Source of the DNA: an uncultured Clostridia bacterium
GTDB lineage: Bacteria > Bacillota > Clostridia > Oscillospirales > Acutalibacteraceae
NCBI GenBank assembly: GCA_947585615.1
Contig: CANPXD010000010.1
Span: 1 to 37,731, forward strand
Length of the DNA stretch: 37,731 bases
Reading direction: 5' to 3'
The notes beneath the pieces are model-generated. The model had not been told where the DNA came from and ran no database searches. It worked only from the letters and a program-made list of their open reading frames with translations. This document shows positions 2,560 to 10,197 of the stretch, one piece after another. Within the stretch, counting starts at the first letter, position 1, and each line of letters opens with the position of its first letter. A program made the position numbers and the translations under genes.

Positions 2560-3288
2560 TTGAAAATAGTTGCAAAAACCGACAAGGGTCGGGTAAGAGA
2601 ATCTAATCAGGACGCCTATGCTGTTGGAGAATTTCCCGATGAGGTCGCGTGGGCAGTCGTCTGTGACGGCATGGGAGGTGCAGCAGGAGGAAATATAGCC
2701 TCCGCGCTTGCAGTAAAAGTGATCAGCGATAAAATCAATGCTTCATACAGAGAAAATATGAGAGATTCCTCAATCAGAAATATGCTTGATTCCGCATTAA
2801 CTGCGGCAAACATAGAGGTTTATGATCTTGCTGACGCCAAGCCGGAGTTAAGGGGTATGGGAACAACAGTTGTTTGTGTTGTCGTCAAAAACGGCATTGC
2901 ATTCATTGCCCATGCGGGAGACAGCCGCGCATATGTCTATAATAACGACAGCCTCAGGCAGGTAACTGCTGACCACAGCATTGTTCAGAATCTTATTGAC
3001 AGCGGTAAAATTACGAAAGAAGAAGCTGAGCGTCACCCTAATAAAAATATTATAACTCGCGCAATCGGCGTGGATAAGGGAATTGAAATTGATTTTGACG
3101 AGGTTGAACTCGATGACGATGAAATTCTTATACTTTGTACCGACGGACTTACTAACTACGTTTCAGATGACGAAATGATAAGCGAGGTAAGCGACGGAAG
3201 ATATTATGCTTTTGCTGAAAGATTGATTAATAAGGCTAATAATAACGGCGGCGGAGATAATGTTACAGTCGTTGCCATTGCTAAATAA
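2560..3288 (+). CDS. prpC: PP2C-family serine/threonine phosphatase PrpC (Stp)
   Basis: The 242-residue cytoplasmic phosphatase starts with TTG at 2560, directly after the rlmN stop, with GGGGTGA upstream. PP2C metal-binding motifs are in the expected order: RESNQDAY near residue 12, CDGMGGAAGG near 36, GDSRAYVY near 120, CTDGLTNYVSDDE near 190 and GGDNVTVV near 230. All the metal-coordinating aspartates can be seen. Its family removes phosphates placed by the PASTA kinase encoded next, so the pair sets the phosphorylation state of cell-wall and translation targets. An alternative start further in is unlikely, because residues 1-15 already match the family (KTDKGRVRESNQDA). Confidence 0.95.
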   Translation: MKIVAKTDKGRVRESNQDAYAVGEFPDEVAWAVVCDGMGGAAGGNIASALAVKVISDKINASYRENMRDSSIRNMLDSALTAANIEVYDLADAKPELRGMGTTVVCVVVKNGIAFIAHAGDSRAYVYNNDSLRQVTADHSIVQNLIDSGKITKEEAERHPNKNIITRAIGVDKGIEIDFDEVELDDDEILILCTDGLTNYVSDDEMISEVSDGRYYAFAERLINKANNNGGGDNVTVVAIAK

Positions 3289-3304
3289 TCGGGGTATCGG
3301 TTTT

Positions 3305-5293
3305 ATGGAAAATTATGTTGGAAAAAGATTGGACGGCAGATATGAAATACAGGAGATTATCGGTGTCGGCGGTATGTCGGTCGTTTATAAAGCCTACGAT
3401 AATGTTGATGACAGAATAGTTGCCGTTAAAATTCTTAAGGACGAATTTGCGAGTGATGATGATTTTGTCAGAAGATTTAAGAATGAATCAAAGGCGATCG
3501 CAGTATTGTCGCATCCGAATATTGTCAAGGTCTATGATGTGAGCTTTGGTGAAAAGCTGCAATACATAGTCATGGAGTATGTGGACGGCATCACCCTCAA
3601 AGAGTATATTCAAAAACAGGGCACTATAACTTGGAACGACGCTGTTTTCTTTATATCCCAGATTTTAAAGGCTCTCCAGCACGCTCACGATAAGGGAATC
3701 GTTCACCGCGACATCAAGCCGCAGAATATTATTTTATTGCCCACGGGAAATATCAAGGTAACCGATTTCGGTATAGCAAGGTTTTCAAGAACCGAAACGC
3801 GTACGCTTACGGAAAATGCAATCGGCTCGGTTCACTATATTTCTCCTGAGCAGGCAAAGGGCGAATTTACCGATGAAAGAGCAGATATTTATTCACTGGG
3901 TGTTGTTTTCTATGAATTGCTCGCCGGCGTGGTGCCTTTTGAAGCGGACAGCGCGGTTTCCGTTGCTTTGAAACAAGTTAATGAAGAACCCGAAAGACTT
4001 ACACGGATTAATCCTGATATACCGCTCGGTATTGAGCAGATTTGTATGCACGCTATGCAGAAAAATCCTCTTGAAAGGTATCAGACGGCAACAGAAATGC
4101 TGCTTGACCTTGAGGAGGTAATAAAAAATCCGAATGCAACATTTGACTATACTTATTATGTTGATAAGCAGCCAACTAAATATGTTTTTAGGGAAGAGGA
4201 TAATTACAAGGCGAACGAATATAGCGATAATTATGAGGAATTTTATGAGCCGGAACCGAATAATAAACGCAGAATAATTTTCGCAACTGTTATAGGTCTC
4301 ATTTTTCTCGCCGCCGCAATAGTCGGGATCGTTATTTGGTTGACTCAGGGAGTAAACGCCGATTCTGTTACGCTTTCAAATTATTTAGGTCAGTCCTACG
4401 ATATGCTTATTTCCGCGGATAACAATGATTTGGTTTTTATTGCAAATTATGAGCAGTCACCTGACCATGATCCCGGAACGATTCTCGCACAGGTACCCGA
4501 GGCGGGAACAAAAGTTATCAAGGGAACTACGGTCAATCTTACGGTTGCGGCCTCTGAGGAGGATATTTCCGTACCGAACTGCTATGAAATGAGCCTTGAT
4601 GTTGCTAAAGAACAGCTTGCAAGAGAAGGGCTGACAAATGTTAAAATTGCCGAAGTATCAAGCGAAACTATAGAGGAAGGCTATGTTGTATATTCGGAAC
4701 CTAAAGCCTTTTCCATTGTTTCCAAGGACAGAGAGATAACCCTTTATGTTTCAACAGGTCCGTCAACAACTGTTATTGAAAAAATTAAAGTTCCTGATGT
4801 TACGGGTCTTTCGCAGAGTGACGCAAAGGCGTTTCTTAAAAAGGCGGGCTTTAATAATGTCAATGTTTCAACGAAAGACAGTACTGTTCAAAAAGGGATC
4901 GTTTTGTCACAGTCTCCCACATATGGTGAAAGCATAAAGGCTGATTCATCAATCACCATTGTTGTTTCTACAGGCTACACAACCACTGCCGCGCCCGAAA
5001 CGTATACAATAACGCTGAGCATTACTCTTCCGAATTGTTTTGACGCGGCTAAAGCTTCCAACGCAAGGGATAATCTTGTTATAACCGTGAACGGAGAGCA
5101 ATACTCAAAAAGACAGGTCACCCTTGACGGCAGCACAGTGGAAATCGCAATCGAGGGTGAAAGCGGCACGGATCAGAAAGTTGTTGTTTCTATTGAGGGC
5201 ATTGGGGCAAGCTCCAATTATGACTTTAAGCTGAATCAGAATAAAAACAGGTCTGTTGATTTCAGTGAATACTCCGACAATAATCAGGAGTGA
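3305..5293 (+). CDS. prkC: PASTA-domain serine/threonine protein kinase PrkC
   Basis: The 662-residue membrane kinase is chosen to start at ATG 3305, because MENYVGKRLDGRYE is the usual beginning; the frame is open further upstream, into prpC. Kinase features are the glycine loop GVGGMS at 20-25, Lys42, the catalytic loop HRDIKPQN at 134-141 and DFG at 154-156. A single membrane helix follows near residue 320 (GLIFLAAAIVGIVIWL). Outside are about three PASTA repeats (near 350-425, 430-500 and 505-570), then a threonine-rich linker and a roughly 90-residue beta-type tail that I do not recognise. Known role: it senses muropeptides or lipid II and phosphorylates targets, including during spore germination. 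It lies in one operon with prpC and rsgA. Confidence 0.95.
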   Translation: MENYVGKRLDGRYEIQEIIGVGGMSVVYKAYDNVDDRIVAVKILKDEFASDDDFVRRFKNESKAIAVLSHPNIVKVYDVSFGEKLQYIVMEYVDGITLKEYIQKQGTITWNDAVFFISQILKALQHAHDKGIVHRDIKPQNIILLPTGNIKVTDFGIARFSRTETRTLTENAIGSVHYISPEQAKGEFTDERADIYSLGVVFYELLAGVVPFEADSAVSVALKQVNEEPERLTRINPDIPLGIEQICMHAMQKNPLERYQTATEMLLDLEEVIKNPNATFDYTYYVDKQPTKYVFREEDNYKANEYSDNYEEFYEPEPNNKRRIIFATVIGLIFLAAAIVGIVIWLTQGVNADSVTLSNYLGQSYDMLISADNNDLVFIANYEQSPDHDPGTILAQVPEAGTKVIKGTTVNLTVAASEEDISVPNCYEMSLDVAKEQLAREGLTNVKIAEVSSETIEEGYVVYSEPKAFSIVSKDREITLYVSTGPSTTVIEKIKVPDVTGLSQSDAKAFLKKAGFNNVNVSTKDSTVQKGIVLSQSPTYGESIKADSSITIVVSTGYTTTAAPETYTITLSITLPNCFDAAKASNARDNLVITVNGEQYSKRQVTLDGSTVEIAIEGESGTDQKVVVSIEGIGASSNYDFKLNQNKNRSVDFSEYSDNNQE

Positions 5294-5306
5294 TTATGGG
5301 TACTGT

Positions 5307-6191
5307 ATGCAAAAGGGAAAGATAATTAAAGGTATTGGCGGCTTCTACTATGTGGAGGCCGCCGGAACGGTTTATGAGTGCAGGGCACGCGGCTCGTTCA
5401 GAAAAATGAATATTACGCCTCTTGTAGGTGATGATGTCGAATTTTCGGTAAACACAAATTCCGAAAACAGGATAGAAAATATATTGCCGCGAAGAAATTT
5501 TCTTATTAGACCACCGCTTGCGAATCTTGACAGACTGTTTATTATATCTTCAACTGTTGAACCTGAAATCAATACTTATATAATCGACAGGTTTATTGCT
5601 ATAGCCGAGCATAAAAAAATTGAGCCGATTGTTGTGTTTACGAAATCGGATTTAAGCGACAGTTATAAAAAGTATGTTGAAATATATGTAAGTTCAGGCT
5701 TCAAAACGGTTGTCTGCAGCAATCCGGATAAAGTGGGCGCTGAAGAAATCAGGGCGCTTCTTAAGGACGGAATTTCCGCGTTTACAGGCAATACCGGTGT
5801 AGGCAAATCCTCTTTGCTTAACGCTGTTGACGGAAGCCTTAAACTTGCAACAGGGGAAACGAGCAGAAAGCTCGGAAGAGGCAGACATACAACAAGGCAC
5901 TGTGAGTTGTTTAAGATAAACGGCGGTTATATTGCCGATACACCGGGTTTTTCCTCGCTTGATTTAGATAAATGCGAACGGATAAAGAAAGAGGAATTGT
6001 TCGGCTGTTTTCGTGAATTTGAGCCGTATTTCGGTCAGTGCAAGTTTTCCACGTGCGCGCATATAAATGAAAAAGGCTGCGCGGTTTGTGAAGCCGTCAG
6101 AAACGGTTTTATTCAAGAGAGCAGGCATAACAGCTATGTTAATATGTATAATGATGTTAAGGATTTAAAGGAATGGGAAATGAAAAAATAG
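5307..6191 (+). CDS. rsgA: Ribosome small-subunit biogenesis GTPase RsgA
   Basis: The 294-residue protein has the circularly permuted GTPase order diagnostic of RsgA/YloQ/YjeQ: an N-terminal OB fold (about 1-65), then the G4 motif TKSD, then the P-loop GNTGVGKSSLLNAV, then DTPGFSS. A C-terminal zinc knuckle follows (CKFSTCAHINEKGC). Known role: late 30S maturation, with GTPase activity stimulated by the small subunit. ATG 5307 gives MQKGKIIKG, the usual start; the AGGAG at 5286-5290 is rather far upstream (16 bases), so initiation probably relies on coupling to prkC. In Bacillus rpe follows this gene; here thiN overlaps its end instead. Confidence 0.93.
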   Translation: MQKGKIIKGIGGFYYVEAAGTVYECRARGSFRKMNITPLVGDDVEFSVNTNSENRIENILPRRNFLIRPPLANLDRLFIISSTVEPEINTYIIDRFIAIAEHKKIEPIVVFTKSDLSDSYKKYVEIYVSSGFKTVVCSNPDKVGAEEIRALLKDGISAFTGNTGVGKSSLLNAVDGSLKLATGETSRKLGRGRHTTRHCELFKINGGYIADTPGFSSLDLDKCERIKKEELFGCFREFEPYFGQCKFSTCAHINEKGCAVCEAVRNGFIQESRHNSYVNMYNDVKDLKEWEMKK

Positions 6192-6805
6192 GTTGTAAGA
6201 TTGTTTCCGGCGCGCCCGACGGGAATATTGATTATTTAAGAATTAAGTTAAGCGGAAATCCGTTTGTTATTGCCGCTGATTCCGGATACGTGAATTGCCT
6301 GAAGGCAGGCGTAATTCCCGATTTGATTATCGGAGACTTTGATTCCTCCGAAATGCCGTCATTGAAAACGGAAATAATTAAGCTTCCTGTTGAAAAAGAT
6401 GATACCGACACATTTTACTGTGTCAAGGAAGCTGTCAGACGAGGGTTCGTAGATATTGAGATACTATGCGCAATCGGGGACAGAGCAGACCACAATTACT
6501 CAAATATGCTCTGCCTTGAATATTGCAGGCAAAATAAAGTTAAATGTGCTATTTCAAATAAAAAAAATAAAATAATGCTTGTTGATGACTGTATTTGTAT
6601 TGATGACAGCGAATACAAATATTTTTCCGTGTTTTCTTTTTCCCGCCATGCTTACGGTGTGTCAATAGAAGGCGCGTACTATAAAGCGGATAATATCGAT
6701 ATGAATTATTATGATAATTTCGGGCAGAGCAATCATTTTTGCGGTGCTCCGGCTAAAATTTCAGTCAAAAAGGGAAATCTTCTTGTAATTCAGAGTAACG
6801 ATTGA
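6173..6805 (+). CDS. thiN: Thiamine pyrophosphokinase
   Basis: This 210-residue enzyme transfers pyrophosphate from ATP to thiamine to make thiamine diphosphate. Recognisable motifs are ADSGYVNC near residue 37, GDFDSSE near 54, KDDTDTFYCVKEA near 73 and GDRADHNYSNM near 103. These are the ATP/metal site and thiamine-site signatures of the family. A C-terminal beta domain (about 130-210) is also present. ATG 6173 lies inside the end of rsgA (19-base overlap). An AAGGA about nine bases upstream is the likely ribosome site, and an in-frame stop just upstream at 6158 rules out a much longer form. Position directly before spoVM matches the Bacillus order. Confidence 0.93.
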   Translation: MGNEKIGCKIVSGAPDGNIDYLRIKLSGNPFVIAADSGYVNCLKAGVIPDLIIGDFDSSEMPSLKTEIIKLPVEKDDTDTFYCVKEAVRRGFVDIEILCAIGDRADHNYSNMLCLEYCRQNKVKCAISNKKNKIMLVDDCICIDDSEYKYFSVFSFSRHAYGVSIEGAYYKADNIDMNYYDNFGQSNHFCGAPAKISVKKGNLLVIQSND

Positions 6806-6857
6806 ATATTTTTTTCATATCATATAGTAAATGCAGCAAAAAAGAGGTGCTTTTGAT

Positions 6858-7001
6858 ATGAAAAAGATGTGCCGCAGAGATTTTCTCTGGATCGCTTTTG
6901 GCGTAGGGTGTGTAGCGGCTATCTGTCTGCCCTCAACATGGCTTATTAGAATACTTGCTGTTGCGGTAATTGTTCTCGGCATCATTTGCTGCAAAAAATG
7001 A
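6858..7001 (+). CDS. 47-residue membrane peptide between thiN and spoVM
   Basis: A short reading frame with ATG at 6858 is preceded by GAGGTG eight bases upstream. It encodes a basic, cysteine-rich N terminus (MKKMCRRDF), a hydrophobic stretch with GVGCVAAICLP, a Pro-Ser-Thr-Trp turn and a second hydrophobic stretch ending in CCKK. That suggests a hairpin of two short membrane helices or one long helix. Five cysteines in 47 residues is high for this genome. The strong ribosome site, tidy stop and placement only 15 bases before the spoVM-like gene make it very likely real. I do not recognise a named family. It may be produced with SpoVM during sporulation, but this is inference. Confidence 0.7.
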   Translation: MKKMCRRDFLWIAFGVGCVAAICLPSTWLIRILAVAVIVLGIICCKK

Positions 7002-7016
7002 TTTGGAGGGAATTAC

Positions 7017-7100
7017 TTGAAAGTTGTAATTGTAAAACCGTCGAAATTCATGGCGCCCATAATGAGATTGATTTTTAAAATAAAAAAGGTTAATTACTGA
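7017..7100 (+). CDS. spoVM: SpoVM-like stage V sporulation peptide (27 residues, TTG start)
   Basis: The TTG at 7017 follows GGAGGG (7005-7010) by six bases. The peptide begins MKVVIVKPSKFMAPIMRL and ends IFKIKKVNY. Aligned without gaps to the 26-residue B. subtilis SpoVM as I remember it, it shares Lys2, Lys7, Lys10, Phe11, Ile15 and Arg17 and the amphipathic, basic-ended pattern. The helix-kinking proline is at position 8 rather than 9, with another at 14. Known role: SpoVM binds the convex forespore membrane and anchors SpoIVA. Gene order supports the call strongly: thiN precedes it, as in Bacillus, and sipL-spoIVA follow. It is too short for most gene finders. Confidence 0.85.
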   Translation: MKVVIVKPSKFMAPIMRLIFKIKKVNY

Positions 7101-7107
7101 CATACTT

Positions 7108-7156
7108 CAGAACGCTCCGTAAAATTGCTCGGGATTTTACGGAGCGTTCTGTTATA
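7108..7156 (+). terminator. Hairpin terminator after spoVM
   Basis: A perfect 18-base inverted repeat pairs 7108-7125 (CAGAACGCTCCGTAAAAT) with 7134-7151 around an eight-base loop. The following bases, TTATATTATT, are T-rich but interrupted, so termination may be partial. It separates the thiN-spoVM transcript from the sipL-spoIVA unit. Confidence 0.75.
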
Positions 7157-7180
7157 TTATTGCCAAGAACTGCATATGCT
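7152..7180 (+). promoter_or_regulatory. Probable sigma-E-type (mother cell) promoter for sipL-spoIVA
   Basis: TTATATT at 7152-7158 and CATATGCT at 7173-7180 are separated by 14 bases. This resembles the sigma-E consensus (a -35 with ATATT and a -10 of the form CATAcanT). It lies 78 bases before the sipL start, just after the hairpin that closes the previous unit. Sigma-E control of spoIVA is established in Bacillus; here it is inferred from the sequence match. Confidence 0.55.
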
Positions 7181-7257
7181 TTATCAGTAAGGCTGAAAGC
7201 AGGCGAAACACCGTCAAAAGTTTGCCGCGCCGACCTAAATACCAAAGGAGTACTGCT

Positions 7258-8715
7258 ATGGAAAATAACATAAGGGAAATCAAAGAAAAATGCAATGTTT
7301 TTTCAAAATGTGTGGACGTTGATCTTGATTTTCAGGAAAATCTTATGTCCTATAATGACGATTTGCTGAAAATTATAAGATGCTGTGTCAATAACTATAT
7401 TGTCAACACAGATTACGCCAACTCAACGCTGACCGTGTACGGAAAATCAAAAATTTATCTGACTTATGTAAGCGAATCAACCTCTTGCATTACAACGGCG
7501 GATTTTGAAGAGGATTTTCAGAAAACGGTTGCTATTGAGGGAGGATATGAAGATGTAACGGCAGATGTATCCGTTGTGAACAGATACAGCAATTTCAGGG
7601 TGATCAACCAGAGAAGGATTGATATTCACAATGCCTTTGCACTTGATATAAAGCTGTGTGCCCCTTCGCCGATAAATATGATTGAAGAAGCAGAGGGTGT
7701 GCTGATAAAGAGAGACACTGTAAACTATTTGTCTCTTGTGGGAACATCTTATTCAAAGGCAGAGTTTGAGGATGAGGCGGCAATTCCGTCTGACAGCGAC
7801 GTAATAAGAAAAATCATTAACACATTTGCGACGGTAAGATGTGAGGATGTTAAAATTATAAAGGATAAAATGCTGGTTCGTGCGGCAGCTGACTTTTCGC
7901 TTTTGTATACGACCGATACGGAAAAAGAAGTTATCAGAAAATGCGAAAAGAGTGTGACAATCAGCAAAATTGTGGACATAGGCGGTATTGATGAGGGCGA
8001 TGACGCTATAGTTAAGCTGACTCTCGGCAACGTCTATGCTAAGCCAAAGGCAGACAAAAATAACGAGCTGCGCGGTATAGAGCTTATCGGAGACATTCAT
8101 TTGAACAGCAGCGTATACAGAAAGATAAGCGCTCGGTTTTCAACAGATTCATATGCAACGGAAAATGAAATTAAAAATGAATTTTCAAAAATTAGTCTTA
8201 ATACAAACGGAGCAGTAATAAGCGATATTATCAACGATAAGACAGTTTTTGAATTTGACAATGTAAATATTGTTGAAATATTGGATTTGTCTCTTAATAT
8301 GAACGACGGCAAAAATCTTGAACTTGCGGCATATGTAAGGAATGAAAACGCAGAGCTTATTTTCATAACGCAGAAAAAAGAAATTTCGGTAAAGGAATTT
8401 AACACCGCAGCACTATATGTTAAATCGTTTGACTATATTGTAAAATCCGCAAATGAAATCAGTGTCAGGTATCTTATTGAATATACTGCTGCCGAATTTG
8501 AAGAAAAAACCTACAGCATATTGTCGGATATACAGTTCAGTGACACGACGGTAAGCGAATCGCCTGCGCTTGTTGTTTATTTTGCGAGGGAAAATGAACT
8601 TATATGGGATATTGCCAAAAAATTCAGAACTTCTGCGGATCTGATAAAAGCTGAAAATGAATTAAAAGACGACGTGCTTGATTCAAGACGTATTCTTTTA
8701 ATCCCCGGAATGTAA
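7258..8715 (+). CDS. sipL: SipL-like SpoIVA-interacting spore coat protein (SPOCS/DUF3794 repeats plus LysM)
   Basis: The 485-residue protein starts at ATG 7258 with AAAGGAG at 7244-7250; the in-frame extension upstream lacks a ribosome site. Residues about 1-430 are beta-rich repeats of the DUF3794/SPOCS kind, with DLDFQENLMSYNDD near the start and recurring SYVYRKIS-like and DISLNM-like segments. The last 50 residues form a LysM domain (VVYFARENELIWDIAKKF... RRILLIPGM). This SPOCS-plus-LysM build matches C. difficile SipL, the clostridial counterpart of SpoVID, which binds SpoIVA through its LysM end to encase the spore. The next gene, 12 bases away, is spoIVA, which makes SipL far more likely than another LysM protein. 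There is no signal peptide, as expected for a mother-cell protein. Confidence 0.88.
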   Translation: MENNIREIKEKCNVFSKCVDVDLDFQENLMSYNDDLLKIIRCCVNNYIVNTDYANSTLTVYGKSKIYLTYVSESTSCITTADFEEDFQKTVAIEGGYEDVTADVSVVNRYSNFRVINQRRIDIHNAFALDIKLCAPSPINMIEEAEGVLIKRDTVNYLSLVGTSYSKAEFEDEAAIPSDSDVIRKIINTFATVRCEDVKIIKDKMLVRAAADFSLLYTTDTEKEVIRKCEKSVTISKIVDIGGIDEGDDAIVKLTLGNVYAKPKADKNNELRGIELIGDIHLNSSVYRKISARFSTDSYATENEIKNEFSKISLNTNGAVISDIINDKTVFEFDNVNIVEILDLSLNMNDGKNLELAAYVRNENAELIFITQKKEISVKEFNTAALYVKSFDYIVKSANEISVRYLIEYTAAEFEEKTYSILSDIQFSDTTVSESPALVVYFARENELIWDIAKKFRTSADLIKAENELKDDVLDSRRILLIPGM

Positions 8716-8727
8716 GGAGGGAAAAAT

Positions 8728-10197
8728 TTGAGTATATATAATGATATATCAACAAGAACACAGGGCGACATCTATATAGGTGTAGTGGGTCCTGTAAGAA
8801 CAGGAAAATCAACCTTTATCAAAAGATTTATGGATACTCTTGTAATTCCGAGGATTGACGGTGAATTCCAAAAGGAGCGCGCAAGGGACGAATTACCGCA
8901 GAGCGCGGCAGGAAGAACGATTATGACGACTGAGCCTAAGTTTATTCCCGAAGAGGCGATTGAGCTTTCAATGCAGGATAATCTGCATTTCAGAGTGAGA
9001 TTGATTGACTGTGTCGGTTACATTGTTCCAAGCTCAGTCGGATACATAGAAGAGGATCAGCCGAGAATGGTCAGAACGCCTTGGTTTGAAGAGGAAATAC
9101 CTTTCAATATGGCTGCCGAAATCGGGACACAGAAGGTTATAAAAGAACATTCCACGATCGGTCTTGTTGTAACGACCGACGGTTCTATCAGCGCTATTCC
9201 GCGTGATGAATACGAAGAAGCAGAGGAACGCGTAATCTCTGAATTAAAGGAAATCAACAAGCCGTTTATAGTCATTATGAACTGCGTTGAGCCGGAATCG
9301 TCTGACGCGCTCTCACTGTGTCACAAGCTGTCGGATAAGTATGATGTTCCCGTAATTCCCGTAAACTGTCTTGAACTGAACGAGGATGAAATTAACCATA
9401 TTCTTGAAAAGGTGCTTTATGAATTCCCGGTTTCAAGCATTGCGCTTAATTTCCCGTCATGGATAAAGGGTCTTGAAAGGGAAAATGAGCTGAAATCAAA
9501 TCTTTTTAATTCGGTAAGAGAAAGCTGTTCGGAAGTCAGCAACATAAGGAGCGTAAAGCAGTTTGCGGAAAATCTTTCCAAATGTGAAAATATAGACAGC
9601 CTGAATATTTCTGACCTTGATTTGTCCGATGGGAGCGTCAGCATAAAGATTTCGATAGATAACAGCTACTTTTATTCAATTCTTTCAAAGCAGTGCGACA
9701 TTTCCATAACAAACGAAAGAGACCTAATGCGCGAAATTATTAATCTGACGTCGATAAAGCGTGATTATTTAAGATTTTCGGCTGCCCTTTCCGAGGTCGA
9801 ACGAACAGGCTACGGAATAGTTATGCCCGATATAAACGAACTAACGCTTGAAGAGCCTGAAATTATGAAGCAGGGCGGTCGTTACGGCGTACGTTTAAAG
9901 GCTCAGGCACCGTCAATTCATATGATTAAATGCAATACTTATACAGAGGTCGCACCGATAGTAGGAAGCGAGAGTCAGTCGCAGGAACTTGTTATGTATC
10001 TGCTCAGAGAATTTGAAGAAAATCCTGCTGATTTGTGGAAAACCGATATTTTCGGGAAGTCGCTTCACGAGCTTGTGAACGAAGGACTTCACGGCAAGCT
10101 TGAGCGTATGCCTGATGACGCGCGAAATAAATTCAGAGAAACCATAGAAAGAGTTATAAACGAAGGCTGCAGCGGTCTTATCTGTATTATACTCTGA
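8728..10197 (+). CDS. spoIVA: Stage IV sporulation protein A, spore coat morphogenetic ATPase
   Basis: The 489-residue protein begins with TTG at 8728 after AAGGAGG (8714-8720). Residues 18-29 hold the Walker A motif GVVGPVRTGKST. This is followed by the switch region with the conserved threonines (AAGRTIMTTEP) and the DCVGY segment typical of SpoIVA, which uses a GTPase-like (TRAFAC) fold to hydrolyse ATP. The middle and C-terminal domains (about 250-489) drive polymerisation, and the C terminus (SGLICIIL) is short and hydrophobic, as in the family. Known role: it self-assembles into the basement layer of the coat on the forespore surface, anchored by SpoVM and linked to SipL; both partners are encoded immediately upstream. 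Confidence 0.96.
   Translation: MSIYNDISTRTQGDIYIGVVGPVRTGKSTFIKRFMDTLVIPRIDGEFQKERARDELPQSAAGRTIMTTEPKFIPEEAIELSMQDNLHFRVRLIDCVGYIVPSSVGYIEEDQPRMVRTPWFEEEIPFNMAAEIGTQKVIKEHSTIGLVVTTDGSISAIPRDEYEEAEERVISELKEINKPFIVIMNCVEPESSDALSLCHKLSDKYDVPVIPVNCLELNEDEINHILEKVLYEFPVSSIALNFPSWIKGLERENELKSNLFNSVRESCSEVSNIRSVKQFAENLSKCENIDSLNISDLDLSDGSVSIKISIDNSYFYSILSKQCDISITNERDLMREIINLTSIKRDYLRFSAALSEVERTGYGIVMPDINELTLEEPEIMKQGGRYGVRLKAQAPSIHMIKCNTYTEVAPIVGSESQSQELVMYLLREFEENPADLWKTDIFGKSLHELVNEGLHGKLERMPDDARNKFRETIERVINEGCSGLICIIL

Follow-up and report, generated by a model that had tools for sequence, protein, structure and literature searches.

SpoVM serves as the model of a tiny protein that reads micrometre-scale curvature, and this model leans on one supposedly invariant proline. 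In Bacillus subtilis it is a 26 aa coat anchor that recognises curvature and has SpoIVA as its partner. A P9A mutant of this peptide loses its localisation, and variants with the proline re-inserted at positions 7-13 are credited to Kim 2017, both according to the review PMC12004969. PMC5607322 names K2, I6, P9 and I15 of the B. subtilis protein, and in Fig. 1 of that paper, an alignment of Bacilli and Clostridia, Pro9 alone is conserved throughout. No title or abstract opening describing a natural loss of Pro9 was found in a literature search that lay mostly outside subscription journals.

In C. difficile, a small gene (CD25622, 50 aa) precedes spoVM, the two are carried on one sporulation transcript, and SipL is a coat partner, as described in PMC5607322. 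The same paper reports CD25622 as Peptostreptococcaceae-specific and as having little effect on sporulation, a conclusion drawn from insertions that were probably polar on spoVM. It also describes the loss of spoVM as mild, SpoVM being barely needed, and SpoIVA as encasing the forespore without it. Because C. difficile barely needs SpoVM, a conserved spoVM in Clostridia is not necessarily a sign of curvature sensing. Concerning annotation, Table 2 of PMC3533761 lists 70 spoVM ORFs that had been overlooked, and this paper raises the question whether distant SpoVM versions exist.

Organization of the spoVM locus

The window, i.e. the whole stretch of 37,731 nt analysed here, contains the genes stp, prkC, rsgA, thiN, orf47, spoVM, sipL and spoIVA in this order (Table 1). 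An earlier note on this DNA had proposed a SpoVM-like gene with a GGAGGG motif, a TTG start and a 27 aa product; coordinates and sequence are as it claimed, with TTG at 7017-7019, the stop TGA at 7098-7100 and MKVVIVKPSKFMAPIMRLIFKIKKVNY as the product. The peptide is short (22-30 aa class) and basic, and its sequence has the KF.. and R17 core of SpoVM. All residues listed in the note as shared with B. subtilis SpoVM, namely Lys2, Lys7, Lys10, Phe11, Ile15 and Arg17, are found in it, in addition to Pro8 and Pro14. B. subtilis SpoVM has the same six residues, with Leu8-Pro9 in place of Pro8-Ser9, and Gly14 in place of Pro14. Position 6 is Val in the window and Ile in B. subtilis.

The suggested Pro8 in place of Pro9 was read correctly, position 9 being Ser. 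Pro14, the second proline of the same suggestion, is present as well; it occurs in 62 of the 65 genus loci described below and is no part of the shift. Since Pro9 is published as invariant, and stands in every sequence of the alignment of C. difficile SpoVM with other homologs in PMC5607322, the window peptide with its Ser9 and Pro8 breaks the published hallmark.

Length, the pattern of charged and hydrophobic residues and the SpoIVA partner are features that the window gene has in common with B. subtilis spoVM. It is unlike the latter in its TTG start, in being clustered with sipL and spoIVA, and in the small membrane ORF upstream; a small gene in this position and SipL are likenesses to the C. 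difficile system, as far as the latter is described. The earlier note had placed thiN upstream of spoVM, as it is in Bacillus. It does lie upstream, but the immediate neighbour is orf47, which sits between them. The spoIVA gene starts 1.7 kb downstream of spoVM, two genes on, and encodes a protein with an intact C-terminus; its closest named record (95% identical) is from the uncultured Clostridia bacterium MAG Lapin-030, CANRMJ010000010.1.

In the gap between thiN and orf47, the motif CATANNNT, which is -10-like and may be of the mother-cell sigma E/K type, was found in 62 of 65 genus loci, compared to 4.7 expected from mononucleotide shuffles. A match of this type in the window alone is not significant, since 35 of 100 shuffles have one. 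Of the 64 genus loci of sufficient length, 53 have a folding energy of at most -15 kcal/mol in the 80 nt 3' of spoVM (unshuffled energies). A CATA-type element at 7173-7190, before sipL, resembles the one before orf47 and suggests that sipL-spoIVA have a mother-cell promoter of their own, downstream of the spoVM terminator. In the genome to which the window belongs, Spo0A scores over its cut-off, and the sigma-E candidate (310 bits) stays below the cut-off of 348.6.

Table 1. Coordinates of features in the window and of proline-free SpoVM-like peptides in other loci
Feature	Position	Strand	Basis and remarks
stp/prpC PP2C phosphatase	2560..3288	+	NF033484, 272.2 bits
prkC-type PASTA Ser/Thr kinase	3260..5293	+	NF033483, 565.6 bits
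rsgA GTPase	5256..6191	+	TIGR00157, 229 bits
thiN (thiamine pyrophosphokinase)	6173..6805	+	TIGR01378, 130.8 bits, cut-off 76.4
CATATCATATAGTAA, -10-like element containing CATANNNT, thiN-orf47 gap	6816..6830	+	motif conservation
orf47, 47 aa predicted two-helix membrane hairpin	6858..7001	+	stop 15 nt before spoVM; conservation, single-sequence model
spoVM ribosome-binding site GGAGGG	7005..7010	+	read from sequence
spoVM	7017..7100	+	TTG-started 27-codon ORF, Pro8-Ser9 variant; orthology, weak profile match
intrinsic terminator after spoVM	7108..7151	+	19-bp stem, 6-nt loop; -30.7 kcal/mol, z -8.1
sipL (SPOCS + LysM), SpoIVA-interacting coat morphogen	7258..8715	+	PF12673, 65.1 bits; PF01476, 22.2 bits
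spoIVA, coat basement ATPase, protein anchored by SpoVM	8728..10197	+	TIGR02836, 691.4 bits, cut-off 459.9
proline-free SpoVM-like peptides	L251 1501 (-), L253 1501, L278 119, L298 6180 (-)		KASK/KSSK

Profile searches, orthologues and selection

The NCBIfam profile SpoVM_broad (NF033436) aligns residues 1-25 of the window peptide with positions 1-25 of its 26, at E 0.01 and 15.8 bits, which is below the cut-off of 31. When its whole genome was searched with this profile, the window spoVM was not reported, the best match (E 0.47) lying elsewhere; a Pfam scan of the peptide gave no match, and neither did a PDB search with a genus SpoVM peptide (a query one residue off those of G040 and G056). 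The cut-off of NF033436 is passed in 36 of 98 relatives, 28 of them within the genus, mostly by textbook xSPK peptides. Besides B. subtilis, 14 genomes served as controls; five of them give sub-threshold matches, and the cut-off is passed in one control genome. Taken by itself, the profile score would make a weak case for SpoVM. Because the peptide scores below the NCBI cut-off and spoVM genes are documented to escape annotation, it is plausible that the gene was missed by annotation here.

Searching the 98 relatives with the window peptide gave 69 with a match at E<=1. A 22-row alignment, in which row 10 is one residue off the G037 peptide (an effect expected to be small), was used as the query of the genus and class searches and as the profile for small-ORF counts. 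With this alignment, 66 of 80 genus genomes match at E<=0.01. Among those with a completeness of 90% or more and a contamination of 5% or less, 45 of 51 match, the remaining six having no spoVM match at this threshold. All matching genus loci were read except that of G020, whose match (E 0.009) falls within a frame of 132 codons and was excluded as chance-like, leaving 65.

The earlier note had made its proposal depend on whether close relatives conserve the frame, and such conservation was found throughout: the frame is present at the same place in the 65 genus loci, most of which encode textbook SpoVM. A purine-rich binding site precedes the start in all of them (loose pattern). Start codons are ATG in 39, GTG in 17 and TTG in nine loci, which bears out the TTG start of the window. 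Peptide length is 24-29 aa in 63 loci; G455 is cut by the contig end, and the frame of G042 has no stop after the peptide and runs on to 189 codons. ThiN is present in 64 loci, while the remaining one is at a contig edge.

In the clade of 16 species that includes the window's genome, the 23 codons compared have 12, 4 and 22 variable sites at the first, second and third positions. NG86 medians are 0.138 for dN and 1.09 for dS (71 of 120 pairs, the other 49 being saturated), and the ratio of the medians is ~0.13. This pattern indicates that spoVM evolves under purifying selection in the clade. We conclude that 7017-7100 is a real spoVM, and that the identification is carried by orthology (synteny across the 65 loci of the genus, purifying selection, and a place in one cluster with sipL and spoIVA) rather than by the profile score, which backs it weakly.

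Distribution of the proline shift

Within the genus, Pro9 is present in 59 of 65 peptides, and the other six are all Pro8-Ser9. A tree of concatenated PrkC, RsgA and ThiN (64 genus rows and six outgroup rows; the G042 stretch is without these genes) confines Pro8 within the genus to one clade of 16 species (support 0.999), ten with Pro8-Pro9 and six with Pro8-Ser9. Pro9 changed to Ser in three places on this tree, namely in G000+G021, in G059+G045+G032, and in G033, which is nested among Pro-Pro species. Support is 1.0 for each of the first two groups and for the node joining G033 with G027+G030, and two nodes within the Pro8 clade are weakly supported (0.0 and 0.24). By its position on the tree, the window's genome belongs to one of the three losses. 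The Ser9 codon in Pro8-Ser9 species is TCN, one transition from CCN. Outside the Pro8 clade, codon 8 is AGT in four listed relatives of other branches and GCT in G043.

The sample of the order outside the genus comprised 54 distinct loci, the best-scoring ones plus picks, and Pro9 is present in 53 of them; the exception is G257 with KSSK. Pro9 is also present in three further order loci (L237, L239 and L246), included in neither of the class counts. Pro8-Pro9 peptides were observed in two other families of the order (L110 of G089, L140 of G154 and L239 of G077, families f26 and f19), so that the double proline also occurs beyond the genus of the window.

Outside the order, 126 genomes of the class match at E<=0.001, and 60 of them were sampled, 21 from the best-scoring loci and another 39 from further down, chosen to cover different families, with sequences then unseen. 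Pro9 is present in 47 and absent in 13. Positions 8-9 of the latter are Pro-Ser in five, Pro-Gly in three, Pro-Lys and Pro-Cys in one each, and Ala-Ser in three; residue 9 is thus Ser in eight, Gly in three, Lys and Cys once each, and never Ala. Pro9 is absent in 10 of 26 SpoVMs with Pro8 (seven families), in contrast to three of 34 without Pro8 (one family), with Fisher p 0.01 when phylogeny is ignored. The search alignment held five Pro-Ser rows among its 22 and may favour such matches. Start codon, binding site and stop were checked in nine of the ten Pro8 cases of the class, in the three KASK cases and in G257; L294 was translated only.

Peptides entirely free of proline have KASK in three genomes of family f43 and KSSK in G257. 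These SpoVM-like peptides are natural counterparts of the outright loss of Pro9 and may work without the proline device. Judged by aligned peptides, the shift from Pro9 to Pro8 is recurrent among the sampled Clostridia, often beside a gene for a small predicted membrane protein of no named family, and the signal for helix start seems to tolerate a displacement by one residue.

The small ORF upstream of spoVM

A homologue of orf47 is located upstream of spoVM in all 65 genus loci (tblastn E<=1e-3). The structure model, calculated from a single sequence, has helices at 8-23 and 28-46 (mean pLDDT 75.7). We then defined a rule by which a small hydrophobic ORF has a binding site and ends at most 90 nt from spoVM. 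Such an ORF is present in 59 of 65 genus loci and in 47 of 64 distinct loci of the order and class, where those listed have 46-60 aa; among large ORFs taken as a control, with starts set mechanically, the rule holds for six of 593. Comparing the genus orf47 profile with 6817 frames of the other loci retrieved the upstream ORF across families, with clear matches from E 9e-11 to ~1e-2, trailed by weaker ones and a few chance matches. The upstream small ORFs are therefore partly homologous and partly alike in shape only. Eight orf47 members were searched against Pfam and NCBIfam, and none scored over a cut-off. With no named family and a place beside spoVM in many Clostridia, the orf47 family is a candidate coat or cortex factor.

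Because orf47 is found beside Pro9 SpoVMs too, it does not track the proline shift. CD25622 of C. difficile agrees with orf47 in position and size. If they belong to the same family, the result obtained with CD25622 speaks against a large role of orf47. SpoVQ was considered as a relative and rejected, its transmembrane part being described as the N-terminal 32 residues only and the remainder as soluble.

Partner proteins SpoIVA and SipL

In 35 of the 65 loci of the genus, the fetched stretch includes both sipL and spoIVA, and in some others spoIVA is located elsewhere. Residue 42 of SpoIVA (VIP-R-I) is Arg in 15 and Ser in one of the 16 species of the Pro8 clade. Outside this clade it is Asn in 45 of the 47 sequences with a letter there, and Gly in the sister G043. 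Mapped on the tree, this residue changed once, with or near the gain of Pro8, and the change may be coincidence or co-adaptation; as a single event on the tree, it is neither built on nor dismissed here. Species with Pro8-Ser9 and those with Pro8-Pro9 are not separated by any site in SpoIVA or orf47, and three SipL sites separate them loosely, with mixed residues.

Several other differences in SpoIVA were discarded. A Ser/Asn site near the C-terminus appeared linked to the clade in 14 sequences, and over 64 SpoIVA sequences, some of them partial, it does not track Pro8. Two further differences (string positions 2 and 3) fall at positions that precede the start codon.

Function of the Pro8-Ser9 peptide

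Very probably, 7017-7100 is the spoVM of this genome, with the helix-start proline one residue earlier and the peptide still choosing convex membrane. We infer that, in the sporulating mother cell, the conserved CATA-type promoter downstream of thiN would drive a joint transcript of orf47 and spoVM. This transcript would stop at the hairpin after spoVM, with sipL and spoIVA following. The C-terminal amphipathic helix of SpoVM, from about residue 10 on, would sit in the outer membrane of the forespore, the N-terminus of the peptide would recruit SpoIVA, and SipL would in turn build on SpoIVA. The proline would mark the start of the helix and keep the N-terminus flexible; in the lineage of the window this signal would come one residue earlier, as Pro8 with Ser9 as the likely helix cap, compared to Ser8-Pro9. 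In the simplest reading of the aligned peptides, the key feature is that the helix is broken and starts near residues 8-10, which persisted because Pro8 was there before Pro9 was lost. Ser and Gly are helix-capping residues. Replacement of Pro9 mostly by Ser or Gly and never by Ala, the residue of the mislocalising P9A mutant, fits the helix-cap reading, and it is suggestive only, as Pro to Ser is an easy transition and the residue chosen may reflect mutation.

That the stretch is a chance ORF or a regulatory sequence with no peptide gene could be argued from its 27 codons, TTG start and sub-threshold profile score, and from its absence from the whole-genome profile search. As all 65 loci preserve the frame and the start, 63 of them also the length, and change is mostly synonymous, the probability of this is negligible, and the codon pattern refutes it for practical purposes. 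A relaxed or decaying SpoVM, little needed in the clade and losing Pro9 by drift, would agree with the mild effect of spoVM loss in C. difficile, the six well-completed genomes with no match and the missing stop in G042. It is highly improbable in view of the strong bias towards third codon positions, the dN/dS value, the start and binding site kept in every locus, the length kept in nearly all of them, and losses of Pro9 that occurred mostly where Pro8 was already in place.

More weight is due to a genuine SpoVM in which curvature sensing is weakened or altered by the shift to Pro8 (with Pro14), and localisation is delegated to another factor such as orf47, SipL or an adapted SpoIVA. The essential role of Pro9 for localisation in B. 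subtilis, the encasement by C. difficile SpoIVA without SpoVM, the conserved predicted membrane neighbour orf47, the existence of proline-free SpoVMs and the change of SpoIVA residue 42 along with the Pro8 clade are all in its favour. We nevertheless regard it as rather unlikely, because orf47 accompanies Pro9 SpoVMs as well, the sites that split Pro8-Ser9 from Pro8-Pro9 species amount to the three loose ones in SipL, and the disappearance of Pro9 from lineages that have Pro8 suggests that function was kept. Three changes of Pro9 to Ser, each together with Pro8, purifying selection and an unchanged SpoIVA C-terminus make the comparative evidence lean against altered sensing, which is not favoured. 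A distinctly unlikely proposal is that of a two-part forespore-surface module in Clostridia, in which the orf47 hairpin, co-transcribed with SpoVM, helps to place it and releases it from the strict need for Pro9, so that the Pro9-to-Pro8 shifts and the proline-free SpoVMs would be its trace.

The window peptide is a natural version of the engineered B. subtilis P9A and re-insertion variants, with the proline off position 9. It differs from these in being natural and under selection, in having Pro-Pro relatives and in carrying Ser9 rather than Ala9. The proline has been moved by one position repeatedly, and sometimes removed, in nature, and such peptides are ready-made natural variants for a curvature assay.

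Position 21 also varies within the genus. Gly21 was observed in two SpoVMs, L099 (G017, FGVKK) and L103 (G003, FGIKK), and Lys21 in the other 62 genus peptides that are long enough. Gly21 is common in SpoVMs elsewhere in the order.
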